Origin: Oscillatoria nigro-viridis PCC 7112
GTDB lineage: Bacteria > Cyanobacteriota > Cyanobacteriia > Cyanobacteriales > Microcoleaceae
Reading direction: 5' to 3'
Length of the DNA stretch: 64,000 nucleotides
NCBI RefSeq assembly: GCF_000317475.1
Contig: NC_019729.1
Span: forward strand, 3,858,501-3,922,500
Made by a program: the position numbers and the translations under genes
Notes under the pieces: generated by a model
What the model was told of the DNA's origin: nothing
The model's database searches: none
What the model saw: the letters and a program-made list of their open reading frames with translations, nothing else
Shown here: positions 15,138 to 58,229 of the stretch, in pieces
Numbering within the stretch: position 1 is the first letter of the stretch
Layout: every line of letters begins with the position of its first letter

Positions 15138-15145
15138 ACCATTTT

Positions 15146-42383: not shown

Positions 42384-42470
42384 AAATGGGGAAAAAGGTA
42401 ATGGGTAATCGGGAATTGGTAATTGGTCGAATTATTCTGCTTCCTGCTTCCTGCTTCCGTGCATCCATTA

Positions 42471-42605
42471 AATCCGTTAGATAATCCGTTGCCGAACTTC
42501 CTTCTTCCATCCGTTCAATCCGTTAGATAATCCGTTGCCGAACTTCCTTCTTCCATCCGTTCAATCCGTTAGATAATCCGTTGCCGAACTTCCTTCTTCG
42601 TTGCA
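42471..42605. repeat. 46-bp tandem repeat, about 2.8 copies
   Basis: The unit contains AATCCGTTAGATAATCCG, TTGCCGAACTTCCTTCTTCC and ATCCGTTC. The reverse complement reads GAAGTTCGGCAACGGATT, the same sequence that occurs inside comEC (50026-50043) and the gene at 55110-56894. It lies between two PPC-domain genes. Confidence 0.8.
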
Positions 42606-42619
42606 AATCGAGGTAATTC

Positions 42620-43240
42620 ATGCGTCAAGTTAGATTTTGGGCGATCGCGCCAATTGCTCTACTAGCTACTTTTTCTGGCAAGCCGAATCTCTCCCTGCCA
42701 GTTTCAAATTCAAGTGGAGTTGCTAACAGCAGTTCCACCCTCATTTCAGCAGAATTTCCTCAAAATTTACCTGATGCGAGGCTTGCTGGCAAGGCTGTTT
42801 TAACTCAAGCAACCCCCAAGCCGTCGCCATCACCACAGAGTTCGCCAACTCAGAGTCCAACTGTAGAGCCTCGGCAGAGCCCTAATGCGGGTTCATCTAA
42901 AGTCATTTTAGAGCAAAACGGAGAACTCACTCCTGCTAAGTCTTCTGTACTGCCCTCCGACAGCAGTTTGTACGATGAGTATACCTTTGAAGGGACTCAG
43001 GGTCAGAAAGTGGTTGTTACCGTAGAAAGTACCGAGTTTGATACTTATCTCGCTATTTTCAACTCCCAGGGCGAGCTACTTGCAGAAAATGATGATGCAA
43101 CGCAGCAAAATTCCAATTCAGAGCTTACTGTTACCTTGTCTGCGAACGGTCGCTATCGCGTGATTGTCAATGCTTACGATCCGCCTCCAAAAGGTAGAGG
43201 CAAGTACAGTTTGACCGTCCGCGAAACAACTGGGAATTAG
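42620..43240 (+). CDS. Secreted PPC-domain protein
   Basis: A 206-residue protein: hydrophobic N-terminus (WAIAPIALLATFSG) as signal, a Ser/Pro/Thr/Gln linker (about residues 60-95, PKPSPSPQSSPTQSPTVEP), and one PPC domain (about 98-206) with YDEYTFEGTQGQKVVV, DTYLAIFNSQGELLAENDD and GRYRVIVNAYD. The domain is much closer to the second PPC domain of the upstream protease than to its first, so a local duplication is likely. No catalytic domain; possibly a binding or anchoring protein. Confidence 0.82.
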   Translation: MRQVRFWAIAPIALLATFSGKPNLSLPVSNSSGVANSSSTLISAEFPQNLPDARLAGKAVLTQATPKPSPSPQSSPTQSPTVEPRQSPNAGSSKVILEQNGELTPAKSSVLPSDSSLYDEYTFEGTQGQKVVVTVESTEFDTYLAIFNSQGELLAENDDATQQNSNSELTVTLSANGRYRVIVNAYDPPPKGRGKYSLTVRETTGN

Positions 43241-43261
43241 TTTAAACAAAACTTTGGAGTC

Positions 43262-43285
43262 AGGGCACGGCATTGCCGTGTCCCT
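43262..43285. repeat. GGCACGGCATTGCCGTGTCC palindrome
   Basis: Short member of the palindrome family at 2885, 18277 and 23422: CACGGCA and TGCCGTG arms. Confidence 0.7.
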
Positions 43286-43419
43286 CTAATTTAAGGACGA
43301 TCGCACTACAAGCAACTACTATCCACTTTGCTAAATTCATATGTTTGTATGCCAATATAAATGTTATAATATTGTACTTATAATTTGATCGAGTGTATTT
43401 TAAATAACTTTTAAAACTC

Positions 43420-43462
43420 AAAAGGAAACTGAAATATAGATAATTTTTCAGCTTCCTTTTTT
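43420..43462. terminator. Bidirectional terminator between convergent genes
   Basis: AAAAGGAAACTGAA (43420-43433) and TTCAGCTTCCTTTT (43447-43460) pair over 14 bp with one mismatch, with A and T runs on the two sides. Lies between the PPC gene (+) and the Hlip gene (-). Confidence 0.65.
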
Positions 43463-43479
43463 AATTAATTTTGATTAAT

Positions 43480-43671
43480 TTAACGCAGGCCCAGCCAGGT
43501 GAAAAAATCCTGGCGGGTGAAGAATTCTAGCAGCAAAAGTCCCACGAATCCCACCATCGCAAATCGTCCGTTGATTTGTTCGGCGTAGGCATTCCACCCA
43601 AACGCTGGTTCTGCTTGTTTTGGGGTATTTGGGGTTGTCGGTTTTGGGGATGGAGGAGTTTGAGCAGTCAT
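43480..43671 (-). CDS. High-light-inducible protein (Hlip/SCP)
   Basis: A 63-residue protein with a Pro/Thr-rich N-terminus and one chlorophyll-binding helix: AEQINGRFAMVGFVGLLLLE. E and R of ExxNGRxAMxG are the chlorophyll-ligating pair. Hlips bind chlorophyll and carotenoid in thylakoids and protect photosystem II assembly. The start MTAQTPPSPKPTT at 43671 is well placed. Confidence 0.93.
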   Translation of the reverse strand: MTAQTPPSPKPTTPNTPKQAEPAFGWNAYAEQINGRFAMVGFVGLLLLEFFTRQDFFTWLGLR

Positions 43672-43765
43672 TTAAAAGTTTTAAGTTTCGAGTTTTGAGT
43701 GATGATTTTGGGGAAACTTTGCGATCGCACAACTTGTAATTTACCAGGAAAATGACAGCAGAGAG

Positions 43766-44782
43766 TTAATCTGCTGACTTTTCTAAACTTTGAACCGATT
43801 CGATCAGATTTCGCACGGTTTCGGTACCTTCAGAAGGCTCAAAAAACCGTGGGAACTTGCCGCGAGCGATCATTCTCAAACCCAACGGGCCCAGACTCAG
43901 CAAACCTTTAACGTCGCGGAAGTAGTTTCCTACTACTTCGATGCCAAATTTGCGCTCGTCTATCCAGCCGCCTTCTTTGACGAGATCGATTAAAACTTTG
44001 CGGTGTCGGATCGATCGACTGGCTTGGTCGTCTTTGCGATCGAGAATCTCCTGTTTAATCTTACCAATTTGATCCATCGGCGCCACTTCCATCGGACAAA
44101 CCGAGTTGCAGTAGTAACAGCGGGTGCATCCCCAGACGGCTGCAGTGCCTTCGTTGTATTTTTCGAGCCGATTTTCGGTTTCGCTGTCGCGGGAGTCGGC
44201 GATCGTGCGGTAAGCTTTGGCGAGGGCGTGGGGGCCGACAAATTCCGGGTTGACTTCGCGGGCGTTGCACTCAGAATAGCACGCGCCGCAGAGGATGCAG
44301 TTGCCGGTTTGGTCGAGTTTCGATCGCTCTTGTGGAGTTTGCAGAAATTCGCGTTCTGGAATTGCTCGCGAGGCGGTGCTGACATAGGGTTCAACTGCTT
44401 CTAGGTTGTCCCAAAAACTGGTCATGTCAACAACCAAATCTTTAATGACCGGCATATTTCCCATTGGGGCGACGGTGATTTCTGGGATGACATCGGCAGG
44501 CATTTCTGCTGAGCTGGAATTAGCTATTTTGTGCAGTCTTGCGAGTTCGCTGCCCACATTTTCTTTGCAAGCTAATGCCGATCGACCGTTAATTCGCATA
44601 GAACAACTGCCGCAAATTGTATTGCGGCAATTTTTGCGAAAAGCTAAAGTGCCGTCGTGTTCCCACTTGATATTGTTGAGGCAGTCTAGGATGGTATTGC
44701 TCTCTTCCACATCTAGGGTGTAAGTGTGAACCCGGGGAGCCTCGTTTTGATTTTGGCGGACTACGTTAAAGCGGACTTTCAT
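43766..44782 (-). CDS. sdhB: Succinate dehydrogenase/fumarate reductase iron-sulfur subunit
   Basis: A 338-residue protein. 2Fe-2S ligands lie in CRNTICGSCSMRINGRSALAC; the 4Fe-4S and 3Fe-4S ligands are in CILCGACYSECN and CTRCYYCNSVCPMEVAPMD. It is the electron-transfer subunit of thylakoid respiratory complex II. It is longer than the E. coli protein (about 240 residues) through C-terminal residues after about 250, which is common in cyanobacteria. No sdhA is nearby, as in other cyanobacteria where the subunits are scattered. Confidence 0.93.
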   Translation of the reverse strand: MKVRFNVVRQNQNEAPRVHTYTLDVEESNTILDCLNNIKWEHDGTLAFRKNCRNTICGSCSMRINGRSALACKENVGSELARLHKIANSSSAEMPADVIPEITVAPMGNMPVIKDLVVDMTSFWDNLEAVEPYVSTASRAIPEREFLQTPQERSKLDQTGNCILCGACYSECNAREVNPEFVGPHALAKAYRTIADSRDSETENRLEKYNEGTAAVWGCTRCYYCNSVCPMEVAPMDQIGKIKQEILDRKDDQASRSIRHRKVLIDLVKEGGWIDERKFGIEVVGNYFRDVKGLLSLGPLGLRMIARGKFPRFFEPSEGTETVRNLIESVQSLEKSAD

Positions 44783-45021
44783 ATTTTGAGTAAGGAATTT
44801 AGTGTCTATTCTAAGCTAAATTTTCTGACTCTTTAGAAAGCTCTTATTTTTTTAACAACTACCTAAAGTAAGAAATTTAAGAATTTTTATTATTGTTTGA
44901 TAAACATCAATAATTCTCAAGTTATAAATCCTAAATAACAACTTTTTTTAAGGGGATTTTTGAGCTATTAATTGGAAATAAAAGTAATTAATCGCTGCAA
45001 TGCGCTAGTCGGAGGTGCGTG

Positions 45022-45264
45022 ATGTCCAGCTTGTTTGTATTAACTTTTATGTTTTCCACACCGGCTTTTTGTCTGGGTCTGCTAAATCCTCAATGGGTGG
45101 GACTGGGAACTCGCAAGCGATCGGCTGCCTTGTACGGCGGGTTGATGGCACTTTCGTTCCTTTTTCTTGGGGTTACAGCACCTAAGCCGCCGCAACCAGT
45201 TTCCTCGGGGCTGCTGGCCTCAACTGAATCGCCAGAATTTAGGGTAAGCGCGCTTTTTCGCTGA
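45022..45264 (+). CDS. Small membrane protein, unknown
   Basis: ATG 45022 gives 80 residues with two hydrophobic segments (LFVLTFMFSTPAFCLGLL and AALYGGLMALSFLFLGV), then a Pro/Ser tail. I do not recognise the family. GGAGG at 45010-45014 is a good ribosome-binding site and supports translation. It is followed by a terminator. Confidence 0.65.
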   Translation: MSSLFVLTFMFSTPAFCLGLLNPQWVGLGTRKRSAALYGGLMALSFLFLGVTAPKPPQPVSSGLLASTESPEFRVSALFR

Positions 45265-45356
45265 ACGCAGGGTGCTGAGTCTGCACCTCACTTTTATGGC
45301 ATCGAGATCGAGACTCGATCGTTTGTGAAACGCTGTCTTAGATTTGCTGTGCCAAC

Positions 45357-45386
45357 AACCTCGGTTCACGATCGAGGCTTTTTTCG
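45357..45386 (+). terminator. Rho-independent terminator
   Basis: CCTCG and CGAGG stem around GTTCACGAT, directly followed by CTTTTTT. It lies about 95 bp after the small membrane protein gene and ahead of radC. Confidence 0.65.
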
Positions 45387-45463
45387 GTGATTGTACCAAT
45401 TGAAGAACGCAAATCGATCGGCTAAAATCATCTAATTGTTGAGCTTGCGGTGCGGGTGCAGCT

Positions 45464-46195
45464 ATGACTTACAGCTTGAGAATTGTGGATTTGCCAACGA
45501 GTGAACGGCCACGGGAACGGCTGATGGCGGGTGGCCCGAAAAGTTTGGCGACTGCAGAATTGATTGCGATTCTCCTGGGTACCGGTCAGGGAAAAGGCAA
45601 ACTTTCGGCCGTGGGGCTCGGACAGTATATTTTAAATCAGTTGAGTTTGCACCACCGCGATCCTCTGGCTGTGCTCCGCAGTATTAGCGTTCAGGAGTTG
45701 ACGCAGATTCACGGGATTGGCCCTGCTAAGGCAACGGGGATTTTGGCTGCTGTGGAGTTGGGGAAGCGGGTATTTCAGTCGCGGCCGCCGGAAATGGCTG
45801 TGGTTGACTCTCCGCAAGCGGCGGCGGATGCCCTGAGTCAGGATTTGATGTGGCAGTCTCAGGAACGTTTTGCTGTGGTGTTGCTGGATGTGAAAAACCG
45901 GCTGCTGGGTACTCAGGTAATTACGATCGGCACAGCAACGGAAACTTTGGCTCACCCACGGGATATTTTTCGAGAGGTGATCCGCCAAGGGGCGACGCGG
46001 GCGATTATCTCGCACAATCACCCCTCCGGGATCGTGGAGCCGAGCCCGGAGGATATTGCTTTGACGCGGCAGTTGCTGGCGGGAGCGCAGTTTTTGTCGA
46101 TTCCGCTACTGGATCACTTGATTTTGGGGAATGGCGATTTTCGGAGCTTGCGCCAGACTACGACGCTTTGGGAGGAGTATCCCCAGGGCGATTGA
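45464..46195 (+). CDS. radC: RadC/MPN-domain DNA repair-like protein
   Basis: A 243-residue protein. N-terminal helix-hairpin-helix region ([22 protein letters not shown]) and C-terminal JAMM/MPN domain with H184 and H186 in [16 protein letters not shown] plus the following aspartate. RadC proteins were once tied to repair, but their role remains unsettled; the JAMM site suggests a metal-dependent hydrolase. Length is normal. Confidence 0.94.
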
Positions 46196-46512
46196 ACTCT
46201 TATACTTAACTAATTTGATTGCTGTCATTAGTTATTTGTATCTTTGGGCTGTGCGACGGCTGAATCAGCCCTGACAGCAGGCGAATTGTCAGGCTGGAGT
46301 CTCCGGCAACACCCTGTTCGAGCTGAATGTCGCTGCTGATACTTAGTTTCGCTCGCAACTCGGTTAATCTAGTATAAGTAGGTTGAAGAGGTCGCTAATC
46401 CGATTTTTTTTGAGCATACTAAACGTATACTGAACCAGCACCTAAATACCCACTTATTAAGAAATTATTAAATGGGATGTAAAATACACGGTGTGGTGAT
46501 AGGAGGAGAACT
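46196..46512. other. Intergenic region with short palindromes
   Basis: Contains GGCTGAATCAGCC and CTGACA/TGTCAG hairpins (about 46257-46293) and a T8 run near 46405. No ORF is supported. The last bases, AGGAGGAG (46501-46508), are the ribosome-binding site of the next gene. Confidence 0.5.
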
Positions 46513-46851
46513 GTGTTTCTGAGACTTGCAGAACAACACCGTAAATTCGTTCAAGATTTGGTAATGAACCTCCAAGCTTTAGCGATCGTGCTAGAGCATC
46601 GGGGTTATCTGGCATCCTGCTACACTTGCGGGGGTCAGATGAACAGTGCCTCATTTATGGTCAGTTTGACGGACAACCATCTGATTCGATTTTTAGTGTC
46701 AGATTACGGTATCACTTGGACTGAGATGCGGGACGACCGCGAACTCATGAAACTAGAAGGTGCAGAAGCGATTAATCAGTTACAGGAACTGGCAAATCTC
46801 GTAAAGTATCAAATCCAACCTTCGGAAGCTACTTTAGCGACGGCGCAGTGA
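46513..46851 (+). CDS. DUF1815 family cyanobacterial protein
   Basis: GTG 46513 is chosen because the strong AGGAGGAG lies five bases upstream; the product has 112 residues (MFLRLAEQHRKFVQDL...). The sequence LASCYTCGGQMNSASFMV and FLVSDYGITWTEMRDDRELM belong, to my recognition, to the cyanobacteria-specific DUF1815. Soluble, no known function. A pair of cysteines (CYTCGG) could bind metal or sense redox state. Confidence 0.8.
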   Translation: MFLRLAEQHRKFVQDLVMNLQALAIVLEHRGYLASCYTCGGQMNSASFMVSLTDNHLIRFLVSDYGITWTEMRDDRELMKLEGAEAINQLQELANLVKYQIQPSEATLATAQ

Positions 46852-46936
46852 GTGTAGCGATTGCACGGTTCCGAGGAAGGCGACGCAAGAAAGTGGCTGC
46901 TTGTGTGCTAAAACCGAATCCCCAGCGAGTTAGTTG

Positions 46937-47092
46937 AGAGGGTTCATTTAGGTGCACAGCGATGGCTGCTCAACAGACAAGGGTGCTATCAATGTGCCTT
47001 GAGACTGTTTAGCGCTCAGTCGCTCGAAGTGAGCCTGGGCAGACGGCATACTTTATGCCAGAAGTCTCAAACTTGGAACCTCTAGTTTTTTT
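46937..47092 (+). ncRNA. Candidate structured non-coding RNA
   Basis: Lies in an 825-bp gene-free stretch. An outer stem AGAGG-g-TTC (46937-46945) pairs with GAACCTCT (47076-47083), directly followed by AG and seven T. Inside are AGGTGCACA/TGTGCCT (46950-46958 and 46993-46999), GATGGC/GCTATC, GCTCA/TGAGC near 47014-47034, and a perfect GGCATA/TATGCC hairpin (47045-47059). This layout fits a stand-alone RNA of about 155 nt with terminator. No family is recognised; 6S RNA and antisense roles are open. It could also start further upstream. Confidence 0.35.
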
Positions 47093-47676
47093 CAGCAGTT
47101 GATTCTCCCTTGAGAGCGATTAGCAAAATTTAGAAGTGTGACGGCTCGTCGGCTGCGATGTTAATTTCTCACTTGGCCATTCAAAAGTCAAGGAATTGAA
47201 ATTAACTTTAAGCAGGCAGGTAAAATTTAACATCCAGAGTGAGGATGAGGCTGTGAAGATTGGGCAAAAGGCAGCCCACGGGGTGTGACGTGCGGGCGAA
47301 TTGCATTTATTTTTGCTTTTCGATTTAGCCGATAAAGCTAACAATTAACTTGAAACAGCATCATTGCTGTAAAAATCTCACAGCCGGCTTCAGCCGGCTA
47401 AGTTTTGCCAATATTTAGGCTTCGGGGCAATGTTTGACCTTCATGTTAGATAGATTCCGGTTGCACTCCTCATGACTGTTGACTGTGAGCCGAAAAACTG
47501 AAAAGTATGTTTCTATTGGGTTGCAGATTGAAGGAAACTTTACCCCTGACGAGGAAGCACGGATTTGATATTAAACAGCTCTTTGAAGTCGCGATCGCAC
47601 TTGCTACACTAATATTTTATAATATTTTAATGATTAGTCCGAAAATATTTATCGCCCAGTTTGGAGTCAGTATCAA
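47093..47676. other. Intergenic region after the candidate RNA
   Basis: Contains the hairpin AGCCGGCTTCAGCCGGCT (about 47383-47400). A weak minus-strand frame (47120-47344) is not convincing. No recognised gene. Confidence 0.4.
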
Positions 47677-48156
47677 ATGGTAAATTTAAGCGAACTTCTA
47701 GAACCCATCGCCAGTCAATTTCGCAGTCTGGGAATTCCCGAACCAATTACCCATTGGGGCCACCCCGTAATGATGGGGATCGTGGTAGTGGCGATGGGCA
47801 GTTTTGTCGGGTATACGGGATGGCAAGGACGTTTGGCCACCGATAAAGATGTCGCACTCAAAAGTCGATCGGATCACCGCAAGCTTGCACCGTGGATGTT
47901 TCTGTTTCTAGCTTTGGGCTATACAGGCGGCTTGCTGTCGCTGGTGATGCAGCACCAGCCAGTCATGGAAAGCCCGCATTTTTGGACGGGTTCGGCAGTG
48001 CTGGTTTTACTGGCTGTTGGCAGCTTGATTTCGCTGACGGGTTTTGGGGGCAATAAGCTAGCACTGCGCGCGGTTCACGCTTATTTAGGCACGACGGCTC
48101 TTGCACTTATGGTGCTGCACGCGGCTTTCGGTTTAAAATTGGGGCTGTCTATTTAG
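47677..48156 (+). CDS. DUF4079 membrane protein
   Basis: A 159-residue protein with four hydrophobic segments (VMMGIVVVAMGSFVGYTGW, LAPWMFLFLALGYTGGLLSLVM, HFWTGSAVLVLLAVGSLISL, YLGTTALALMVLHAAFGLKLG). Conserved histidines near the membrane ends (ITHWGHPVMM, MQHQPVMESPHFW, VLHAAFG) match DUF4079, related to cytochrome b561-type folds. It may bind heme. ATG 47677 is used. Confidence 0.85.
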   Translation: MVNLSELLEPIASQFRSLGIPEPITHWGHPVMMGIVVVAMGSFVGYTGWQGRLATDKDVALKSRSDHRKLAPWMFLFLALGYTGGLLSLVMQHQPVMESPHFWTGSAVLVLLAVGSLISLTGFGGNKLALRAVHAYLGTTALALMVLHAAFGLKLGLSI

Positions 48157-48367
48157 AAAAGGAAGAGGAAGGGGAAGGGGAAGGGAAAGAATGTAAGGAA
48201 AGAATTTTTGCCATAACTTACGCACGGGTAGCCAAAAACCGGGTTTTTTACCCAAGTTCAGGGCGTTTAGCCCTTTACCCCGGTTGAAAAACCCGGTTTC
48301 TTTGGTAAGGAGTGCATAAGTCCCGCATAGGTTTCCCTGAAATATTCCCCCTCTAAATTGCTAATTA
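48157..48367. repeat. GGAAGGGG tract and AAACCGGGTTT element
   Basis: 48158-48189 is a GGAAGGGGAAGG low-complexity tract. 48216-48322 is a member of the 29161 element family: imperfect ends ACTTACGCAC and GTGCATAAGT, with AAACCGGGTTTT and AAAACCCGGTTT inside. Confidence 0.7.
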
Positions 48368-50977
48368 ATGAATCAAGCAACGGGTGTCATCTTCTGTCTT
48401 GCCTACATTTTGGGATTGATTTCTACAGCGGTTTCTTGGGGTAGATACGCGATACTTGCTTTGGGAATAGCGGTAGCGATCGCCCTGCCAAAATTGTTGC
48501 GAAAATATACTAAAAATTCTGTCAAAGTTACTAAGAAAAGACGCAGCAGACAAAAAGAAAATGCTCTTGAAGCACCCTTAGATGCGAGGGAAGAGTTGAG
48601 TTTGTTGGAGATGCTGCCTAGAGCGAAATGGGTGTGGGCAGTGGCGGGTTTGGTGGCATTTCTAGCTAGCGTTTATTTTGCAGTTCGATCGCCCCAACCG
48701 GCAATAGATGACATCAGCAAACTGATTCCGGCTGGCGGGAACACTCAAGAAGTGGCAGTGACAGTTCGCGGTAGAGTTGTCAGTACGCCTCGATTGACTC
48801 GATCGGGTCGATCGCAATTTTGGCTAGAAACAGATTTAGTTAGCGAAATCAACGGTGGCGAGGGAGGAGTAGTTGTCAACCGCCCAGTATCAGGCAAACT
48901 CTACGTTACAGTGCCCCTCCTGCAAGCAACTGGCTTGTACGCCGACAATACGATCGCAGTTGTGGGTTCCTTGTACAAACCGCAGCCGCCGTCGAATCCG
49001 GGGGCTTTTGATTTTCAAGAATATTTAGCCAGGGAAGGAGCTTTTGCAGGGCTAAAAGGGCGTCAAATTGACTGGACGAGAGAAAATGCGATCGCGGATG
49101 TAAATCGAGTTAACAGCCAAACGGCTGCTTTCTGGGAGTCAAGCGGGATGCGGCCATCGACAATTCAAGCGATGCGGCAGCGGATCGTGCGATCGCAACT
49201 ATCGCAGTTAAATGTTCCCGAAGGGCCCTTGATCGGTGCGATCGCCCTCGGCAAACAAGCAGTAGATTTACCTTACAACATCCGCGACTATTTTGTGCAG
49301 GCTGGATTGGCCCACGCGATCGCAGCTTCCGGCACTCAAGTTTCGATGGTTTTGGCTTTAGTTCTAGCTTTAACCAGGCGTTTTTCCAAACAATTACAAT
49401 TTAGCTTTGGCGTCGGTGCTTTATTTTTGCTCGTGGCGTTAACTGGCTTTGAAGCTTCAGTATGCCGCGCGGCTTTGATGGGATTTGGAACACTATTTGC
49501 TTTGCTGTTGAACCGCGCAATTAAGCCGCTGGGATTGCTGTTAATTGCTGCTACTATTTTACTGCTGGTTAACCCTTTGTGGATTTGGGATTTAGGTTTC
49601 CAACTGAGTTTTTTGGCAACTTTAGGGTTAATCGTGACAACGCCGCCGCTGATGGCAAAATTGGACTGGATGCCGCCCGCGATCGCTTCGATTGTTGTGG
49701 TTCCGATCGCGGCTTCAATTTGGGTGCTGCCGCTGCTACTTTACGTTTTTAGCGTTGTATCACCTTACAGCATTTTAGTCAATATTATTGCGGCTCCTTT
49801 GCTGTGGATTTTGAGTATTGGGGGGATGGTTAGCGCTTTAGCTGGATTGATTTTTCCGCCTGCTGGCAGTGTTTTAGCGCAACTGCTCGATTATCCGGCA
49901 AAGGGGTTAATTGCGATCGCCCAATATTTCTCGCAATTACCCGGTAATTCGGTAGCTGTCGGTCAAGTATCGGTATTTCAGTTAATCGCGCTTTACAGTT
50001 TAATTTGCTGGGTTTGGATCGGGGGAAGTTCGGCAACGGATTCTGTAACGGATGTAACGGATACAATGAGGAAGGAAGAAAAAAGACGGAAGCCGGAAGC
50101 AGTCAGAGGAAAAAACCAGGAAAAGGGGAAAGGGAAGAAGGGGAAAAGTAGAGTTATTGCGCTGCCAGTTTTTTCTGCGGCTTGGATTTTACCGCTGGCG
50201 CTGGTGGCGGGAATAAGTATCATAGTTTTGCCAGCTTGGCACGTTCAAGCATCTTTATTTCAAGTTACTTTGCTGGCGACATCTGGGGAACCAGTTTTAG
50301 TAATTCAAGATAGGGGAAAAGTGGCGCTGATCAATAGCGGTGATGAAAATACTGTGAGGTTTACAGTGCTGCCTTTTTTGCAGCAGCAAGGAGTTAATTC
50401 TGTGAATTTTGCGATCGCCGCTCACAGTCATTTAGGTTTGAACAGCGGTTGGGGAAAATTACTAGAACGGTTGCCAATTAAAACATTTTATGATAACCCT
50501 GCTCCGAAACAAATTCACCGTGGCAGCAATCAGGAATTTATAACGGCTGTGCAATCTCGCCAAGGCGTTTACTTTCCTTTAGAAACTAACAGTAAAGTCG
50601 ATCTGGGTTCGACGCGGTTGCAGTTGGTGAATGCGGAGATTCCGGTGGTAGAATTCCTGGTGGGAAATCGAACTTGGTTGCTCGTCGGTGAAATGACACC
50701 GGAAGCGCAAAAAAAATTGGCAGCAACGGGAACCTTGAAGCCGGCTCAAGTGCTGTGGTGGTCGGGAAAAGCTCTGACGCCTGAGTTATTGACCGCAGTT
50801 GGGCCGCAAGTGGCGATCGCATCTGCTGACGAAATCGACCCAGAAACCGCAGCCCAACTGCGCCAAAGCAAAACCCAGATATTCTGGACAGGGCGCGACG
50901 GAGCCCTCCAGTGGACTCCAGCAGGGGGATTTAAGACTACTTTGGAATCTGAAGAAAATCAAACTTCTTTTTTATAA
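48368..50977 (+). CDS. comEC: ComEC/Rec2-type DNA uptake channel
   Basis: An 869-residue membrane protein that should carry DNA across the inner membrane during transformation. N-terminal OB-like region (about 100-260), the competence domain with many helices (about 290-560; GLAHAIAASGTQVSMVL, FEASVCRAALMG, LWIWDLGFQLSF), and a C-terminal metallo-beta-lactamase-like domain (about 620-860). The metal motif normally written HxDxDH is degenerate here (AAHSHLGLNSGW). Residues 554-596 (SSATDSVTDVTD, then a Lys/Arg/Glu-rich stretch) are an insertion made of repeat DNA. Pilus or other competence genes are not adjacent. Confidence 0.92.
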   Translation: MNQATGVIFCLAYILGLISTAVSWGRYAILALGIAVAIALPKLLRKYTKNSVKVTKKRRSRQKENALEAPLDAREELSLLEMLPRAKWVWAVAGLVAFLASVYFAVRSPQPAIDDISKLIPAGGNTQEVAVTVRGRVVSTPRLTRSGRSQFWLETDLVSEINGGEGGVVVNRPVSGKLYVTVPLLQATGLYADNTIAVVGSLYKPQPPSNPGAFDFQEYLAREGAFAGLKGRQIDWTRENAIADVNRVNSQTAAFWESSGMRPSTIQAMRQRIVRSQLSQLNVPEGPLIGAIALGKQAVDLPYNIRDYFVQAGLAHAIAASGTQVSMVLALVLALTRRFSKQLQFSFGVGALFLLVALTGFEASVCRAALMGFGTLFALLLNRAIKPLGLLLIAATILLLVNPLWIWDLGFQLSFLATLGLIVTTPPLMAKLDWMPPAIASIVVVPIAASIWVLPLLLYVFSVVSPYSILVNIIAAPLLWILSIGGMVSALAGLIFPPAGSVLAQLLDYPAKGLIAIAQYFSQLPGNSVAVGQVSVFQLIALYSLICWVWIGGSSATDSVTDVTDTMRKEEKRRKPEAVRGKNQEKGKGKKGKSRVIALPVFSAAWILPLALVAGISIIVLPAWHVQASLFQVTLLATSGEPVLVIQDRGKVALINSGDENTVRFTVLPFLQQQGVNSVNFAIAAHSHLGLNSGWGKLLERLPIKTFYDNPAPKQIHRGSNQEFITAVQSRQGVYFPLETNSKVDLGSTRLQLVNAEIPVVEFLVGNRTWLLVGEMTPEAQKKLAATGTLKPAQVLWWSGKALTPELLTAVGPQVAIASADEIDPETAAQLRQSKTQIFWTGRDGALQWTPAGGFKTTLESEENQTSFL
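50024..50150 (+). repeat. Repeat DNA inserted within comEC
   Basis: GAAGTTCGGCAACGGATT (50025-50042) matches the reverse complement of the 42471-42605 repeat. It is followed by GTAACGGATGTAACGGAT and a purine-rich GGAAGGAAGAAAAAAG tract like those in intergenic spaces. It reads in frame and separates the membrane part of ComEC from the C-terminal domain. Confidence 0.75.
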
Positions 50978-51037
50978 AGATTTACAATCTGGCGCACTGT
51001 GCGGTAAAATACTTTTAGCTCATATCTCGAATCAATT

Positions 51038-51124
51038 GGAGAGGTGGCAGAGCGGTTGAATGCGGTAGACTCGAAATCTACTTTAGGGGTAACTCTAACG
51101 TGGGTTCAAATCCCACCCTCTCCG
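51038..51124 (+). tRNA. tRNA-Ser (anticodon CGA)
   Basis: GGAGAGG (51038-51044) pairs with CCTCTCC (51117-51123), discriminator G. The anticodon stem GTAGA/TCTAC encloses CTCGAAA, so the anticodon is CGA. A long variable arm and GGGTTCAAATCCC T-arm make it a class II tRNA. No encoded CCA. Confidence 0.96.
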
Positions 51125-51201
51125 TACATCCATTACTCCACAAGGCTTTGAAGCTATCTGCTTTTTTAGCCATCTGTGCAATTTATCGGCAGTGGTATAC
51201 A

Positions 51202-51238
51202 AAAGTGGTATACAAACCATTCTTGTATACCACTTTTT
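51202..51238. terminator. Strong hairpin after tRNA-Ser
   Basis: Perfect 14-bp inverted repeat AAAGTGGTATACAA (51202-51215) and TTGTATACCACTTT (51223-51236), with T and A runs at the two ends. The GTGGTATACAA unit also occurs once directly upstream. Acts as a bidirectional terminator candidate between the tRNA and the minus-strand frames. Confidence 0.7.
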
Positions 51239-51270
51239 GCTTTAACTCCACCCCATCTGTGCGCGATCGG

Positions 51271-51642
51271 TCAGGATAGAAGTATTTCTAAAATTGCCTC
51301 CACGTCTGCCAAGTCAGCCCTCGACTTTTTGCGTCGCGATTTTAACTGGTTGAGCAAGCCTGCCGGTTCGATTTCTGACAAATCGGTTCCGCTTGTCGCT
51401 GAGGTTTCGGGTTGAGTTGGCGATGGGCGCTCAAGTTGCAATTGGAGCCTGTAAATTTCCTCGCCCAGCTTTGCGATGGTTTCATCCTTCGCTGCCAGCC
51501 GGGAATTTAGCCCTGAGATTTCTTGATTCCTCAAATTGATAAGCCCGTCACTCCTTTCTAGGCTCGATCGCAATTTCTCGATTTCTTCTCCCTCCACTTC
51601 AAGCTCGTCTATCCTGGTTTGTCTGACGGGGTGACAACCGCG
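51271..51642 (-). pseudogene. Coiled-coil protein remnant, 5' truncated
   Basis: GTG 51597 gives 108 residues, mostly heptad-like coiled coil (SLERSDGLINLRNQEISGLN, AKDETIAKLGEEIYRLQLQL) and a helical C-terminus. The same frame is open and still coiled-coil-like up to 51642 (VRQTRIDELEVEG) but then stops without a start codon. An overlapping frame to 51744 (MDFCHAIIAELIKIRR...) could be its displaced N-terminus after a frameshift. Family not recognised. Confidence 0.4.
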
Positions 51643-51829
51643 TCAAAAGCTTGATAAAATCAAGGACATAGCCCTCAAACCCTTCTGAAAGAATGGGAGC
51701 TCCGTAGCGTCTAATTTTAATCAATTCCGCAATAATTGCATGGCAAAAATCCATCCCTACTCCCTCCGCAACGCTCGGCCCACAATTGACCATACAGCAT
51801 ATTCCATGTAAATGTAAGCTGTTCGACAT

Positions 51830-52470
51830 CTAAACAGCATTAACCAAGTTACCTTTATTTTTATTTTTCGGTTCCATTTCATAATTAGTCCTCCTTCGTT
51901 TAAAAGTTTATGTAACAGTGATTCTAGTTTTTCAATGGATTCAAATAATCTATTAGCAACATATTCCTTGGCAGAATGCCATACTAATTCAACTAGGTTA
52001 TAGTCAGGGCTATATTTGGGCAAAAACTCTATGATTAGATTCGGCATTTCTGACGCTATTTTCTGCAAAGTCTCGGCTTTTTTATGAAAACTAGCGTTGT
52101 CCAAAATTATCACAAACTTACAGCCCTTATCTTTAAAGTCTTCGGCTAAATTTCCTTGCAATATCCACTCGGCTTTTAAATCTTCATAAAAATTTTTTAG
52201 CACTGCATAAAAATTAGCAGAATTCCCAGATGGAATAAAATCTACCCATCTTTTTTATCTGAATATCTCACTCCACCCATGACATTAATACGACCTTTTC
52301 GTCGCTCTCCTCTTTTTTACTTCGAGTCCCTTTTTTACACCAGTTCTTCCTTCTGATTACTCTTAAACTAAATCCACTCTCGTCCCAAAACCATACCTGT
52401 AAAAGGTTAGGAGATTCTTTTCTATTTTTAGATATTCAGCTAATTTATCTTTAAATAAACCCCTCTCTAC
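51830..52470 (-). pseudogene. IS630 transposase, C-terminal part
   Basis: The DDE region is spread over several frames. From the nested insertion onward the pieces read DKLAEYLKI, then ESPNLLQVWFWDESGFSLRV, then KRGERRKGRINVMGGVRYSD, then VDFIPSGNSANFYAVLKNFYED, each requiring a frame change. The last long frame has VIILDNASFHKK and EFLPKYSPDYNLVELVWHSAKEY, typical of IS630. A further shift near the end restores KNKGNLVNAV and a stop at 51830-51832. At least four frameshifts make it inactive. Confidence 0.8.
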
Positions 52471-52499
52471 GGTATCTTGGGTGCATCTCACTTTTGCGA

Positions 52500-52775
52500 A
52501 TGTGTCAAAAAAGAGTTAAAATGAAAAAGCTAGTAAAATCGTCAAATAAAGATGAGGTAAATAAAATGACACCCTCAGACCAACAACAACTAAAAGCCCA
52601 CTTAAAAGCGGTAGCAAAAATTCTTTACAGAAATACAGAGCCAACTGAGTTAAAAACTTTTGAAAGTATAGAAAAAGCAGTCCGTCAGAAAATGTTATCA
52701 GAGGTTGGTCCAGAAATAGGTAGCTTTTTTTTTCAGCAGTATCAGGAATTCAAACAGGAAAACCCCGAAAAATAA
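52500..52775 (+). CDS. ISKra4 transposase, first frame (N-terminal)
   Basis: ATG 52500 or ATG 52521 opens a helical protein of about 85-92 residues ending KQENPEK. It represents the N-terminal part of the transposase. Its stop (TAA) follows five A residues; the catalytic frame lies -1 relative to it and continues through the same point (PRKIKSIIGSLDITDNQAKYF). Expression as a fusion by -1 slippage on the A run is possible. Confidence 0.7.
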   Translation: MCQKRVKMKKLVKSSNKDEVNKMTPSDQQQLKAHLKAVAKILYRNTEPTELKTFESIEKAVRQKMLSEVGPEIGSFFFQQYQEFKQENPEK

Positions 52776-52858
52776 AATCAATAATCGGATCGCTCGACAT
52801 TACAGATAATCAGGCAAAATATTTTGGCTTAAAAGCTTACAGTCAATTTAGTCCCCTG

Positions 52859-53632
52859 ATGGAAAATTGCTGTCTTTTAATCAGTGCTAACGAATCTTAT
52901 CAAATGGCAGAAAAAGATTTGGAAAAATTTACTGGGATCAAAATTTCTCACAGTACATTACAAAGATTAGTCAAAAGACAAGAATTGGAATTGCCTACAT
53001 CTCAACAAGGAGTCAAAGAAATTACATTGGATGGCGGTAAAGTCAGACTACGCAACGCAACCAAGGGCGAGAGCTGTTACTGGAAAGACTATAAAGCCGT
53101 GTGTTTAGATAATATTTATGCGGGAGCGTTTTTTCAAAATAATCAAGATTTAATTGATTGGACTAATAGCCAAAAATTACTACATCCTATGTATTGCCTC
53201 GGAGATGGCCATGCCGGAATTTGGAACATATTTAAAGAAATTGGAGACAATGAACAAAGACAAGAAATCTTAGATTGGTATCATCTGAAAGAAAATCTCT
53301 ACAAGGTAGGGGGTTCAATAAAACGATTGAAATTAGCCGAAAATATGTTATGGCAAGGCAAAGTTGATGAAGTTATAAATTTATTTAAAGACTTTAAAGG
53401 TCAAGCATTTAAAACGTTTTGCAATTATTTAGATACCCATCGCTGCCGAATAGTAAATTACCAATACTACAAAGAAGAATCCATAAGTTCGATTGGTTCT
53501 GGAACAGTGGAATCAACAATAAAACGCATTGGATTAAGGGTAAAAATATCGGGAGCGCAATGGAATATTGAGAACGTTTCCTCTATGCTTGCTCTTCGCT
53601 GTGCTTATCTCAACGGTCAACTTTCAATTTGA
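52859..53632 (+). CDS. ISKra4 transposase, catalytic frame
   Basis: A 257-residue frame from ATG 52859; the same frame is open upstream to about 52755, so it is really the second half of one protein. Motifs: KEITLDGGKVRLRNA, LGDGHAGIWNIFKEIGD, EILDWYHLKENLYKVGGS and SIGSGTVESTIKRIGLRVKISGAQW, characteristic of ISKra4-family DDE transposases. The protein ends just inside the right terminal repeat. Confidence 0.85.
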   Translation: MENCCLLISANESYQMAEKDLEKFTGIKISHSTLQRLVKRQELELPTSQQGVKEITLDGGKVRLRNATKGESCYWKDYKAVCLDNIYAGAFFQNNQDLIDWTNSQKLLHPMYCLGDGHAGIWNIFKEIGDNEQRQEILDWYHLKENLYKVGGSIKRLKLAENMLWQGKVDEVINLFKDFKGQAFKTFCNYLDTHRCRIVNYQYYKEESISSIGSGTVESTIKRIGLRVKISGAQWNIENVSSMLALRCAYLNGQLSI

Positions 53633-53658
53633 TGTATGTGCCAAAGTGAGATGCACCC

Positions 53659-54126
53659 GGTATCTTGTTTATCCTCTAAGCTATATTTTGCCCAAAGGTA
53701 AACATACTTTTTTGACTTTAAAATCCTCCTTACTTGAGTGCTACTCAGTTCAATTCCTGTCTTTTTTCCTAAATATATGGCAAGTCTAGCTGTTGTCCAT
53801 CTCCCGAATTCATAGCCATATTTCTCAGGTTCTACTTCAATTGTCTCTAGAAGTAAATCAATGTATTCTTCTGTGGCTTTTCGGTAGTTACCCTTCATCC
53901 TATCATCTTTAAAACTGTCTAAATTCTCAGGATCACCATGAATACTCCAATAAGCAACTTTTCTTAGAGAACATCCAATTAGTTCAGCAGTTTGAGCTTG
54001 TGTATTTCCGTTATTTAGTAACAAAAAAATTAAGGCTCTTTGCCGAATATCTGGATGCTCATGCTCTTTTAATACTTGTTGAAGATTTTCCTTTGTTTCG
54101 GAACTTAGAAAGTTTTTAGCAGGCAT
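53659..54126 (-). pseudogene. IS630 transposase, N-terminal part
   Basis: ATG 54126 (MPAKNFLSSETKENLQQVL) encodes the HTH region with DIRQRALIFLLLNNGNTQAQTAELIGCSLRKVAYW and the winged-helix linker with YEFGRWTTARLAIYLGKKTG, then meets the nested insertion after LEDKQDT. The rest is at 51830-52470. Confidence 0.85.
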
Positions 54127-54201
54127 TCACTTTTTCTGAATATCATTATGTTATATTATACCAATATGCGTTTTAAATGCACAACAGCTTAGTACGGAGA
54201 A

Positions 54202-54265
54202 ACCGGGTTTCGAGGAACAGAATCAGTAATGATGCGAGAACTTTAAAGAAACCAGGTTTTGCGCG
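54202..54265. repeat. AAACCGGGTTT element
   Basis: GAAACCGGGTTTCGAGG and AAAGAAACCAGGTTTTGCG belong to the family at 27667, 29161 and 48216. Confidence 0.6.
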
Positions 54266-54343
54266 GTGTACTTCATAAACCTGGAATACGCTGTATCTCT
54301 CTTTTGTCACTTCGGGCGAGAGTATAGCGGTATGGTGCGTCGC

Positions 54344-54994
54344 TCATTGATAGTCGTAAACAATCAGAATTCTGGCGGCGACGCACCCTACTTTAATTAG
54401 AATAGGAGTAGGATAATAATCTCTACCGAAAGTGACAGAAGAGGGATATAATCCAATCCAAAAACTACTATGACGGCGTTGCGATCGTTTCCACTCAATC
54501 AGGCGACCGATGTATTTCTGAATTCCCATAAGCTTAAACTTACGTCCCTGTAAAATAGCGCAACTGTAAGCCAAAGCTATCAATAAAATTAAAGTTTTTA
54601 GGCGGTCGTCAGAAGCGTAGCTTTTTTCAAGATTATAGCCTCCTGTTTTACAGTCCTTAAACATTGCTTCAATACCACTGGGACATTTAAACGCTGTTAC
54701 AGCTTGTTTCAATGTGCCGATATTTGTGAGTAAATACCAGCCTTCATCTTCACCGCTATCTCGATATTTGCGTTGCCAATAACCAGCGACATCAAACAAG
54801 CCAAATCCTTTCTGTTTTGTGACTTTAACTCCCGGCAAATAAAAGCTCGTACCTGGTACTAAACCCCACTCGATCGGCCGCTTAAATTCCTTTCCTTGTT
54901 CTTGAATATACCGTCCCTGTTTTATTCTTAAAACAAACTTGATATTCTTTTCACACAGCCAACTTGCCAGCTTAACACTCCCAAATTCACGCAT
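54344..54994 (-). pseudogene. IS4-like transposase remnant
   Basis: A 216-residue frame matching the C-terminal half of IS4-type transposases: REFGSVKLASWLCEKNIKFVLRIKQG, GWYLLTNIGTLKQAV, and the YREK-like region IEAMFKDCKTGGYNLEKS. Upstream of the ATG the reading KYKFVLLGD precedes a one-base shift before REFGS, so the catalytic domain start is displaced and the N-terminal half is missing. The C-terminal end lies in a GGTGCGTCG palindrome (54334-54387), so the last residues derive from repeat DNA. Confidence 0.7.
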
Positions 54995-55109
54995 CTCCTA
55001 AAAGCACAAATTTATATTTTTTTAGCAGACCAAGGATGGGAGAGATTAAGCTTTGTTGTTCTCGGAGGTTGCTACAGCGATCGGACTGTCGTTGCGGGCG
55101 ATCGCCAAA

Positions 55110-56894
55110 TCAAGAACAATGATAAACTTGATATTCATACCCATCCACCGCAGGCAACTCTGGCGATTCAACCTGACATTTTTGTGCTTCTAGATTGACA
55201 GGTGCGCGAAAATTAACCAACCACAAATCAAGCGGGCGTTCTAATTGACTGAGTGTTTTGTCAAGTGTCCCTGCCGCTATTTCCGGGGCATCCCTTCTCT
55301 GATTAGCCAAAAGAAACAGGGGAGAATCAAAGGCTTTAACTTCTTCTTTCTTCCTAACATCCTTTACATCCATTACATCCGCTACAAAATCCGTTGCCGA
55401 ACTTCTTTCCCATTCCCACCCTATCCCCATCAACTCTCCTATTTCTACATGAGTCTTTTGAGTAGTAGCAATTAACACGGGAACTTTCGAGACTTCGCGG
55501 ATAATCGGAATTAAAAGGTCTGGTTTGTAATATTTGCGATAGCCGAGATTGGAATTTACTGTCACACCGCTTGCAAAACCCATTGCTAAAATTAGCACCA
55601 CTGCTTTTTTGCCCGGAACTTCGATCGCCCGAAAATTAAACCATTGACTTTTTGCTGTAGGTGTGTTAAAAATAACCGCCAAGGTTGCTCCTAACAGCAA
55701 TATCACTCCCGGAAAGTAGACGAAATTGTATCGTGCGCCGCGAGTTAGGTCAATCCCTAGAATATATGCAAAGCTGAAAAATAGGAAAATTGCTCCTAGC
55801 ACAAATCCGCCGAAAATAACAGTACCTAAACGAGTATTGGTTGTTTTTAAGGAAGTTTTAAGAGCGCTAAACAGGATGGGAAGCACCAATATAAAAAATA
55901 TTGCCATTACGATCGCCGATGCAACCACTACGGCCAAATTTGACGATTCAATGGGCAGCAGAGACATGACAGTGATCCATCCAGCTAAAGCTTGAAAAAT
56001 TGGATTGAGCCAATCTAAAAATGTGCGATCGCCGCTGACAATCCAATTAGTTAGTTCGCTGCCGTATTTATTTGACAAAAATACCGGCAACCAAACTAAA
56101 CCGCCAGCTAAAGTGCCAATCGCTACTGCGAAAAGCCGCCACAGGATTTGAAATTGCCAAATATTAGGCTGCTGGCTGTTTGAAATTGGCAACTTTCCCT
56201 TAAACTCCTGCCAGATTACAGCAATTAATGCTATTGCTTCGGCACACAAAGCCAGTGCAAAAAAGTAGTGAACGGCAATTCCCAAACAGTTAACAACTAC
56301 CCAAAGCAGAACCGCCCAAACAGGCAGGGGAGCGCGCTGTTGCAGCTTTTTTGCAGCTAAGACGAGGCAAAAAAGAGAGGCAATAACTAATAAGATTCCT
56401 AAAGTGTAATGGCGAGCTTCTTGAGCGAGATAAATGCCGTAGGGAGAAACTGCCATCATCGCGGCCCCACATTGACCGACTAAACGAGAACTAAAAGCAA
56501 ATTTGCCCAAAAAGTAGATAGCTGGAACTGAAATTACGCCCAATAATGCAGGAAGAGCTCGCCCAATCCAAACTAAACTATCTTCTGAAGGCCCAAACAG
56601 TCGCATCCACCAGTGGGCGAGCATAAAATATACTGGTGGATGATTGCTTTCTAGGAGCAAATGGTTGAGGACATCTGCAATGTCAGCACCGGGGCGAAAT
56701 TGCAGCGGTTGTAATAATGTAGAAAGGTCGATCGCGCGATCGAGAGGCACCCCTCGAAAACTGTTGCCCAAGCTAAAAACTAGAGTCGAAAACTCGTCTG
56801 TCCACAGCGGTTTCGAGTTTAAATTGGCAAATCGCAAGATCGAGGCGATCGCCGTCCACAGAAATAGCAACAACAGTTGTTTGTTCTTAATCAT
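55110..56894 (-). CDS. GT39-type membrane glycosyltransferase
   Basis: A 594-residue protein with about 10-12 membrane helices and the GT-C hallmark acidic pair in the first external loop (SKPLWTDEFSTLV), then SNHPPVYFMLAHWWMRLFG and YLAQEARHYTLGILLV. These enzymes move sugars from polyprenyl-phosphate carriers to lipids or proteins on the outer membrane face. The next gene encodes a GT2 enzyme that could make the polyprenyl-phosphate sugar. Residues about 498-515 (SSATDFVADVMDVKD, then VRKKEE) are an in-frame repeat insertion. Confidence 0.85.
   Translation of the reverse strand: MIKNKQLLLLFLWTAIASILRFANLNSKPLWTDEFSTLVFSLGNSFRGVPLDRAIDLSTLLQPLQFRPGADIADVLNHLLLESNHPPVYFMLAHWWMRLFGPSEDSLVWIGRALPALLGVISVPAIYFLGKFAFSSRLVGQCGAAMMAVSPYGIYLAQEARHYTLGILLVIASLFCLVLAAKKLQQRAPLPVWAVLLWVVVNCLGIAVHYFFALALCAEAIALIAVIWQEFKGKLPISNSQQPNIWQFQILWRLFAVAIGTLAGGLVWLPVFLSNKYGSELTNWIVSGDRTFLDWLNPIFQALAGWITVMSLLPIESSNLAVVVASAIVMAIFFILVLPILFSALKTSLKTTNTRLGTVIFGGFVLGAIFLFFSFAYILGIDLTRGARYNFVYFPGVILLLGATLAVIFNTPTAKSQWFNFRAIEVPGKKAVVLILAMGFASGVTVNSNLGYRKYYKPDLLIPIIREVSKVPVLIATTQKTHVEIGELMGIGWEWERSSATDFVADVMDVKDVRKKEEVKAFDSPLFLLANQRRDAPEIAAGTLDKTLSQLERPLDLWLVNFRAPVNLEAQKCQVESPELPAVDGYEYQVYHCS
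55345..55406 (-). repeat. Repeat DNA inserted in the GT39-type gene
   Basis: On the minus strand GAAGTTCGGCAACGGATT is followed by TTGTAGCGGATGTAATGG and AAAGGATGTTAGGAAG. The same core occurs at 42471-42605 and in comEC at 50025, and is read in the same frame (SSATD) as in comEC. Confidence 0.75.
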
Positions 56895-56939: not shown

Positions 56940-57010
56940 TAGTCATTAGTCATTAGTCATTTTATCAATTCTCAATTACCAATTACCAATTACCAATTAC
57001 CAATTACGCA
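56940..57010. repeat. TCATTAG and CAATTAC tandem tracts
   Basis: Tandem CATTAGT units then five ACCAATT units between two glycosyltransferase genes. No gene. Confidence 0.7.
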
Positions 57011-57014
57011 TTAC

Positions 57015-58229
57015 CTACTTCACGTCCGTCACCCGCCAGCTCAGCTTCATATTGATCCAGAAATTCCACAGAGTCACAGTCGCGATCGCGATTAAATTAG
57101 CAAGATATTTATTCATCCCAAAAACATTAAACAGCAAATTAAACAGCAGCAAATTCAAAATCAAACCCATCAAGCAAATCGTGTTAAATTTCAACAGCCG
57201 TTTCAATCGCTGGCGCTTTCTTGGCTGCCGCTTAGAAATGTCTCCAAAAGTCCACAAATCATTCCACAAAAAGTTACTGATAATTGCCAATTCAGCAGCA
57301 ACGATCAGACTGCCATTCACCTCAAAATTGAGGATATCGGACAGCACGTACAAAACCCCCAGATTCACAAACACGCCACTGAAACCCACAATGCCAAACC
57401 GCAGAAACTTGCCCATCGGCCAGCGGGCCAACCGCAACCGAAGCAAATGTCGCAAATACTCAATATACTGTTTCCAGGTAACTTTGCTCTCCCCTTCTTG
57501 CCGCTCCTGAAACACGTAACCAACTTCTCCAATCCAGCGGATATCGCCTCTGCCGAGCACTTCAATCAATATTTTGTAACCAGCAGGATTCATGGTTTTG
57601 CCCGCTATGCAACTGCGGCGCACCATAAAATACCCGCTCATCGGATCGGAAACTCGGCCCACCACTCCCGGTAGGATCAGCAACCCCACGGTTTGAGCGC
57701 CCCGCGATAAAAATCGCCTGACAGGGCTCCAGTCGCTCACCCCGCCCTCGCCCACGTGACGACTGGCAGCAGCTAAATCTGCTCCCCGCTGAATTTCTGC
57801 TAAAAGCTGCAACATCGTCTCCGGGGGATGCTGCAAGTCGGCATCGATGACGCCCAAAACCTCGCCCCGAGCCGCCTGCCACCCGCGAATTACGGCCGTG
57901 GAAAGTCCCCGCTCGTGTTCCCGGCGCATCACCCGCAATTGCGGATATTCCGGTGTCAGGGACAGGGCGACTTCCCAGGTGCGATCGGGGCTGTCGTCAT
58001 CGACTACAATTAATTCGTAGTCGCCCGGAATACTGCCATCGAGCAATTGGCTCAATTTTTCCACAATACTCTGGATATTCCTGCACTCGTTGTAGGTGGG
58101 AATTACCAGGGAAAAATAAATTGGCGGTGTGCCTGCGTGTACAAAACCTGAACCGAAAGTCTGTATAGCAGGAATTTGCAAAGGCCCCGACGGCATTGGC
58201 AAGACCTGATTTGCTTCGTTGATGCCCAT
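57015..58229 (-). CDS. GT2 polyprenyl-phosphate glycosyltransferase with GtrA domain
   Basis: A 404-residue protein. Residues about 38-270 are a dolichol-phosphate-mannose-synthase-like GT2 domain: SLVIPTYNECRNI, VVDDDSPDRTWEVA, GVIDADLQHPPE, and SDPMSGYFMVRRS. Residues about 275-400 form a GtrA-like four-helix membrane domain (FLRFGIVGFSGVFVNLGVLY, NFLWNDLWTFGD). It should charge a polyprenyl phosphate with a sugar. The N-terminal 35 residues are variable. It lies 120 bp upstream of the GT39-type gene on the same strand, so the two likely cooperate. Confidence 0.92.
   Translation of the reverse strand: MGINEANQVLPMPSGPLQIPAIQTFGSGFVHAGTPPIYFSLVIPTYNECRNIQSIVEKLSQLLDGSIPGDYELIVVDDDSPDRTWEVALSLTPEYPQLRVMRREHERGLSTAVIRGWQAARGEVLGVIDADLQHPPETMLQLLAEIQRGADLAAASRHVGEGGVSDWSPVRRFLSRGAQTVGLLILPGVVGRVSDPMSGYFMVRRSCIAGKTMNPAGYKILIEVLGRGDIRWIGEVGYVFQERQEGESKVTWKQYIEYLRHLLRLRLARWPMGKFLRFGIVGFSGVFVNLGVLYVLSDILNFEVNGSLIVAAELAIISNFLWNDLWTFGDISKRQPRKRQRLKRLLKFNTICLMGLILNLLLFNLLFNVFGMNKYLANLIAIATVTLWNFWINMKLSWRVTDVK

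Follow-up and report, generated by a model that had tools for sequence, protein, structure and literature searches.

A short dispersed repeat of one cyanobacterial genus, lying mainly between genes and mostly in one frame within them

The described repeats closest to the one treated here, an 18-bp core (GAAGTTCGGCAACGGATT) present between and inside genes in a 64-kb stretch of Oscillatoria nigro-viridis PCC 7112 (NC_019729.1, positions 3,858,501 to 3,922,500; hereafter the window), are the small dispersed repeats (SDR) reportedly described in Nostoc punctiforme by Elhai et al. in 2008 (Genome Res. 18:1484; cited in PMC6513891 and mentioned briefly in PMC3116915). SDR elements measure 21-27 nt, form eight families in Nostoc and often lie in heptamer arrays; SDR4-6 have a conserved predicted hairpin, and for SDR in general mobility has been proposed through an enzyme acting in trans or an RNA intermediate. 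The RPE of Rickettsia, longer and palindromic, are the best-known selfish repeats to have spread in frame into proteins of bacteria, a spread usually tied to small genomes and weak selection. Heptamer repeats of cyanobacteria, the STRR, are said to have been reported by Mazel et al. in 1990. In the cited sources, RPE-containing proteins are named in Rickettsia (PMC2635572), three tandem heptanucleotides occur in Calothrix PCC 7601 (PMC4692102), REP/REPIN elements are short, dispersed extragenic repeats with RAYT transposases (PMC3116915), and PARCELs are palindromic, amphipathic tandem domains of 25 residues that are mobile, protein-coding and present across distant clades (PMC2996958). We report that the core belongs to a dispersed repeat family limited to one cyanobacterial genus, which we regard as Microcoleus sensu lato, and nearly absent elsewhere. 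Among the papers listed in searches of the open-licence PMC literature no description of it was seen, and neither the core nor the triple heptamer discussed below appeared as text in any paper, a search that DNA split by breaks or set inside figures would escape.

The repeat family and its heptamer setting

A letter search of the window returned five exact matches to the core, at the three places named in the initial annotation; one boundary given there as 55406 was a single base off (55405). The features concerned are the following.

42462..42605, minus strand: intergenic tandem array of three 46-bp units (GAAGTTCGGCAACGGATTATCTAACGGATTGAACGGATGGAAGAAG), the last unit diverged
42483-42500, 42529-42546 and 42575-42592, minus strand: exact core copies of the tandem array
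48368..50977, plus strand: host gene comEC, 869 aa
50025..50063, plus strand: core repeat in comEC, read SSATDSVTDVTD
50025-50042, plus strand: exact core copy in comEC
50064..50155, plus strand: lysine/glutamate (K/E)-rich stretch of comEC after the core, made of degenerate GGAAGAA-type repeats
55110..56894, minus strand: host gene called GT39-type in the initial annotation, encoding a membrane protein of 594 aa
55357..55405, minus strand: core repeat in the GT39-type gene, read SSATDFVADVMDVKD
55388-55405, minus strand: exact core copy in the GT39-type gene
55337..55356, minus strand: short K/E-rich tail after the GT39-type core (VRKKEE)

Chance would give 0.16 cores with up to three mismatches in the window, and none of 100 shuffles reached five. 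In the own genome (8.27 Mb, six contigs) the core matches exactly at 31 places and, when three mismatches are allowed, at 72, where the reversed control gives 4. With at most one mismatch there are 44 places, every one of them on the largest contig; contigs C2-C6, about a tenth of the genome, have none. At this same threshold the core is present in 29/29 genomes of the genus, at 4-186 places each and about 1,580 in sum. Three of the 30 relatives from outside the genus have it too, at a single place each, and the reversed control matches one of the 30; two of these three places (L151, L152), when read in context, were chance coding words. In addition, GGAAGTTCGGCAACGGAT was found in 5 of 292 genomes drawn evenly across the phylum, all five belonging to the genus (one of 115 genera). 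A scan of named genomes gave at least 120 stretches and, among the matches listed, 117 were titled Microcoleus, Microcoleaceae, Tychonema, Lyngbya sp. CCAP 1446/10, Oscillatoriales or cyanobacterium. The remaining three among those listed came from Paludifilum, a Pseudomonadales metagenome-assembled genome (MAG) and a Pseudanabaena MAG. The contig of the last one (L084) carries a full element inside lnt and is probably mis-binned, or the product of a transfer. The shuffles and the counts in the own genome, the genus and the phylum rule out a chance origin of the copies.

The information profile of 207 aligned copies is low over a weak GGAAGAAG, climbs to the near-invariant GAAGTTCGGCAACGGATT and carries on through nTGTAACGGATGTAACGGATG, the conservation of the core in this alignment being in part a reflection of the criterion by which copies were selected. 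The core GGAAGTTCGGCAACGGATT runs into 9-bp units of the GTAACGGAT type, with an internal period of 9 bp; a copy has 0 to 7 such units after the core, two being the commonest number (86/207). Directly to the left of the core and in exact phase, a GGAAGAA heptamer (at most one mismatch) is found in 83 of the 207 copies; anywhere within 16 bp on that side it is found in 89/207, and within 16 bp to the right in 76/198. At two control positions the heptamer appeared in 16/207 and 9/207. Embedding of the core in heptamers is therefore common, not universal.

The GGAAGAA flanks consist of head-to-tail 7-bp units, and such an array has a particular coding property: all six frames are open, the three sense frames encode one identical peptide, and the frame moves by one with every unit. 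Given how much heptamer repeat surrounds the core, it could be thought that simple slippage of purine-rich heptamers made the whole structure, with no separate element. However, TTCGGCAACGGAT is not part of the heptamer, the core itself is not heptameric, and it is near-invariant across the genus. Triple GGAAGAA was found in 29/29 genomes of the genus and in 5/30 relatives, numerous among the latter only in G034 and G049, and in both of these the core is absent despite the many heptamers (for this count the reversed pattern is unusable as a control, since reversed GGAAGAA is a rotation of itself). Core conservation, distribution over the genus and these two heptamer-rich genomes without core rule out slippage alone, which we regard as practically out of the question. 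The window also holds many other 7-bp tandem arrays, of the ATTTTAG, TTGGGCA, GTTGACT, AATCTAA and TTACCAA types, at 6157-6187, 15141-15178, 27487-27518, 18211-18247, 23328-23373, 38174-38205 and 56962-57015.

A folded RNA or hairpin element found no support. At the gathering threshold Rfam reported two tRNAs only in the window, the core matching no known Rfam RNA; four sequences folded no better than their shuffles (z-scores -0.30, 1.18, -0.72 and 1.33), and no inverted ends or palindromic doublet were found in the core.

The copies lie mainly between genes and are depleted from coding DNA. By a simple codon-usage gene caller, 14 copies out of 168 fall inside genes, the called coding share of loci L031-L150 being 70%; L295, which belongs to these 14, is doubtful, the element lying just before the likely start. 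Convergent gaps hold 32 copies and divergent gaps 15, for 59 and 75 among all gaps above 80 bp (P=0.006). Tandem Repeats Finder delimits the intergenic array of the window at 42462-42599 (46-bp unit, 3.0 copies), between genes at 40935-42383 and 42620-43240.

Reading frame of the copies inside genes

Both in-gene copies of the window are read AGT-TCG-GCA-ACG-GAT, that is SSATD, and translation bears out the common frame noticed in the initial annotation. The insert SSATDSVTDVTD begins at residue 554 of the 869 of ComEC and SSATDFVADVMDVKDV at residue 498 of the 594-aa protein; a K/E-rich stretch follows in each, and both genes stay open. That stretch, described initially as the tail that follows the repeat, is largely a separate repeat, a GGAAGAA array found also in core-free alleles of these sites. 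In the AlphaFold models, residues 555-604 of ComEC (core plus K/E stretch) are the longest segment with a pLDDT confidence score below 50, and residues 501-520 of the 594-aa protein, into which its insert falls, are the weakest blocks, with a mean of 51. ComEC matches Pfam PF03772 and PF13567, and the 594-aa protein had no Pfam match at E<=0.001; its name GT39-type is thus unconfirmed.

The frame was counted on distinct copies with at most two mismatches to a 17-mer, from loci taken by DNA pattern or place and not by protein. The sample of 228 became 224 after removal of four chance matches (L082, L089, L151 and L152, one copy each, from other taxa, in which the 18-mer is a chance coding word). 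Twenty-two of the 224 copies are inside genes, at 18 independent sites, and at 17 of these 18 the frame is SSATD. The sites are in ComEC, the GT39-type protein, a second GT39-like protein, GltB (two sites), UvrC, RibBA, a fused oligopeptide-type ABC ATPase, a TPR protein, Lnt, a glycosyltransferase, a TM0106-family nuclease, a TIGR03960 radical-SAM protein, a Wzy_C protein, a DinB_2/FGE protein, a FAD-type protein, a GH116 glucosidase and RsgA, the names GT39-like and FAD-type being readings by eye without a family match. The proposal that the repeat had spread into coding DNA as a short charged linker leaving its hosts open is supported by these sites and by the size of the family. The proposal of a single frame for all coding copies holds as a dominant habit and not as an exclusive one, which is ruled out by the antisense copy in RsgA.

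If five frames were equally likely, 17/18 would have P=1.9e-11, and strand alone gives P=7e-5. Among 255 copies examined up to 40 nt from the element, 241 have the SSATD frame open, against 196 and 29 for the two remaining sense frames and 178, 208 and 229 for those on the antisense strand; openness alone therefore does not explain the bias. Read in the other sense frames, the core runs into a stop (EVRQRIL-stop) or yields a peptide rich in Cys (KFGNG..CNGC), and antisense reading yields peptides rich in Leu, Pro and aromatic residues.

Some decisions define this count, which is blind to copies that break a gene. Lnt (L084) was kept despite the Pseudanabaena MAG title. L135 and L285, in the sense frame but upstream of the likely start codon, were not counted as coding, and neither were antisense open reading frames (ORFs) with the element just before a likely start (e.g. 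L006, L030, L057, L295). L299, found by a protein search biased to the SSATD frame, was also left aside; this locus of the own genome (C1:1546200-1549500) encodes a FabF-like synthase with an SSAT insert, then heptad and other repeats, about 85 repeat residues in all.

Filled, heptamer-only and empty sites, and how the repeat may move

Homologues outside the genus lack the insert, which rules out a conserved ancestral protein sequence: in 20 aligned ComEC rows from 19 genomes the linker is either missing or short and unrelated in sequence, and SSATD is absent from the GT39-type homologues (likewise 20 rows from 19 genomes), one of which (L274) has a longer unrelated loop. Within the genus, the ComEC linker of 29 genomes, classified by eye, is the core in 14, GRRKKEE-type heptads in 8, unrelated in 3 and uninformative in 4. 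Of the 26 genomes classified for the GT39-type site, 17 have the core there, and G018 has it by eye. A strain-specific insertion in these two genes, as suggested initially, is ruled out by the numbers of genus genomes with the core in each.

The cleanest case of filled, heptamer-only and empty alleles at one position is GltB (glutamate synthase). Site A has the core or a diverged form in 6 genomes, heptamers in 4 and neither in 15; site B has the core in one genome, heptamers in 8 and neither in 15. The core of site B sits within an intact heptamer array (GGAAG / TTCGG...GTTA / GGAAGAAGGAAG), and relatives have the array without the core. Of the 15 site A alleles free of both repeats, 11 have AAGGAAGAAGG (KEEG when translated, at most one mismatch) at the point that the core occupies in other genomes. 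The intergenic gap behaves in the same way: among 26 classified genomes the core is present in 6, heptamers in 10 and neither in 10, with 2-4 core copies in G018, G002, G020 and G024 and heptamer or other repeats alone in others. On the species tree, the states changed fewer times than shuffled labels at the GT39-type site (0/500 shuffles as low) and the intergenic site (6/500), and less clearly so in ComEC (48/500). G001 and G019 have a common odd tail at GltB site A that is missing from their nearest relatives on the tree. It seems that loss of inserts, or their exchange between species, also occurs; homologous recombination between Microcoleus lineages is reported in one study (PMC10923798).

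Other repeats were seen at these sites. A second, palindromic repeat of the CCCTTCGACTACGCTCAGGG type occupies the same coding heptamer sites in L348 and L353 (GltB sites A and B) and L196 (ComEC), and the site B loop of G005 (L351) is expanded by yet another tandem repeat, of AKMTPIGDKNPETATE units. In the draft genome G006, ComEC (C227:32913-35458) and the GT39-type gene (C207:22652-24336) are both split at the repeat linker, by a frameshift or an assembly error.

We consider the following account of this small genus-specific dispersed repeat, often lodged in GGAAGAA arrays, reasonably probable: its frame inside genes is set by selection, and its movement is due to recombination or template switching between arrays. 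Copies would arrive without regard to frame, and selection would retain mainly the one that gives the hydrophilic peptide SSATD(xVTD)n; the kept copies are nearly all in this frame, presumably because the others give a stop or the Cys-rich or Leu/Pro/aromatic-rich peptides. In-gene copies occupy loops that also tolerate heptamer repeats, and there the array could re-adjust the frame around the insert, the gain or loss of one or two units being sufficient because each heptamer shifts the frame by one and all frames are open. The flanking direct repeats offer a route both to gain and to precise loss of the core. The cores would thus pass from array to array, and between species, with no dedicated enzyme, an enzyme or an RNA intermediate being the less likely alternative; array-to-array exchange fits the embedded alleles.

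The frame could instead be set at insertion, by a target of fixed phase and strand such as the KEEG coded by AAGGAAGAAGG, and the 11 of 15 repeat-free GltB site A alleles with this sequence agree with such targeting. Yet a heptamer array presents all three sense frames within three units, so that a target alone does not fix the frame; the ComEC, Lnt and Wzy_C sites begin from other residues, and the RsgA copy is antisense. We think targeting unlikely and infer that selection sets the frame. A useful function of the SSATD-type linker, for instance as a regulated or solubilising linker for which it would be kept, might be suggested by its recurrence in many enzymes and by the fact that most genomes of the genus have retained it in the GT39-type gene. 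This looks highly improbable when close relatives are without the linker at sites such as those of GltB and show no further change, when linker lengths and units vary freely, and when most copies are outside genes.

As for movement, the core, with or without its heptamer fringe, could be a miniature element that depends for its mobility on an enzyme acting in trans or on an RNA intermediate, with heptamers as preferred target or by-product. The range of copy number among genomes of one genus (4-186), the many copies without an adjoining heptamer and the near-invariance of the core, with its 31 exact copies in the own genome, would agree with dedicated mobility; the lack of inverted ends and of a fold beyond shuffles, and the GltB site B core inside an array that relatives have core-free, do not. 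We hold this explanation to be rather doubtful.

Several observations weigh against recombination between arrays followed by selection. More than half of the copies have no recognisable heptamer directly alongside, the GltB allele states agree with the species tree no more closely than shuffles of their labels do (500/500 at both sites), and no transposition or recombination event was observed in these sequence comparisons. The heptamer-first order is unproven, and loss of the core could leave heptamers behind. The preference for gaps could stem from an insertion bias instead of selection. Regarding the frame, RsgA is a clear antisense coding copy, diverged (e.g. HPLNPVHSPLPNFLL) and common to 14-15 species (L294 in the own genome), with a short or unrelated loop at its position in other genus members. 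L070 and L145 are possible further antisense coding copies in ORFs judged unreliable and left out of the count: L145 is a 208-aa ORF of doubtful reality, and L070 a hypothetical ORF with two antisense copies and crowded with other repeats; counting L070 gives 17/19, and L145 as well 17/20. The L070 ORF (7369-7998) is built mostly from GGQDAHPTINGKSCGTGILPVADI units plus antisense copies of the core element.

A broader and more tentative idea, which we find conceivable and hold less firmly than array recombination with selection on the frame, is that heptamer arrays open in six frames act as frame-neutral docking sites, where genes take up and release cargo by array recombination and heptamer number restores the frame. 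The cargo would include both the SSATD core and the palindromic element at the same GltB sites. If true, docking would mean repeated, transposase-free gain and loss of linkers of about 15-50 residues in essential enzymes of one genus.

Meaning and comparison with known repeats

The in-frame spread of a selfish repeat occurs here in cyanobacteria that are free-living and whose genomes measure some 5 to 8.5 Mb. Its hosts include conserved enzymes (glutamate synthase, UvrC, RibBA, RsgA), and close relatives may carry filled or empty alleles; because such alleles exist, frame choice, repeat movement and protein tolerance become testable. Small selfish repeats can in this manner supply new pieces to working proteins. 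Annotation is affected too: sister species differ in these linkers, which in one draft genome (G006) coincide with two broken genes.

Like SDR, the Microcoleus core is a very short non-coding repeat limited to one cyanobacterial lineage, in a heptamer setting and with signs of recent gain and loss. It differs in lineage, presumably in sequence, and in having no hairpin, and with its 9-mers it reaches about 45 bp, longer than the 21-27 nt of SDR; moreover, we know of no SDR with so strong an in-frame coding habit. The GGAAGAA flanks are of the STRR kind, whereas the core has a 9-bp period and is not heptameric. With REP/REPIN elements it shares short length, dispersion, extragenic position and high copy number, but not the palindromic doublet. 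PARCELs and the core both act as protein-coding repeats, the latter as a hydrophilic linker confined to a single genus, where its hosts are conserved enzymes. The parallel with RPE drawn in the initial annotation stands as regards in-frame copies in unrelated genes, mostly in one frame, and does not extend to a fold, none being found beyond shuffles. Both are selfish repeats that leave their host proteins in place; the Microcoleus core is short, unstructured and mostly intergenic, and it has spread in free-living cyanobacteria.

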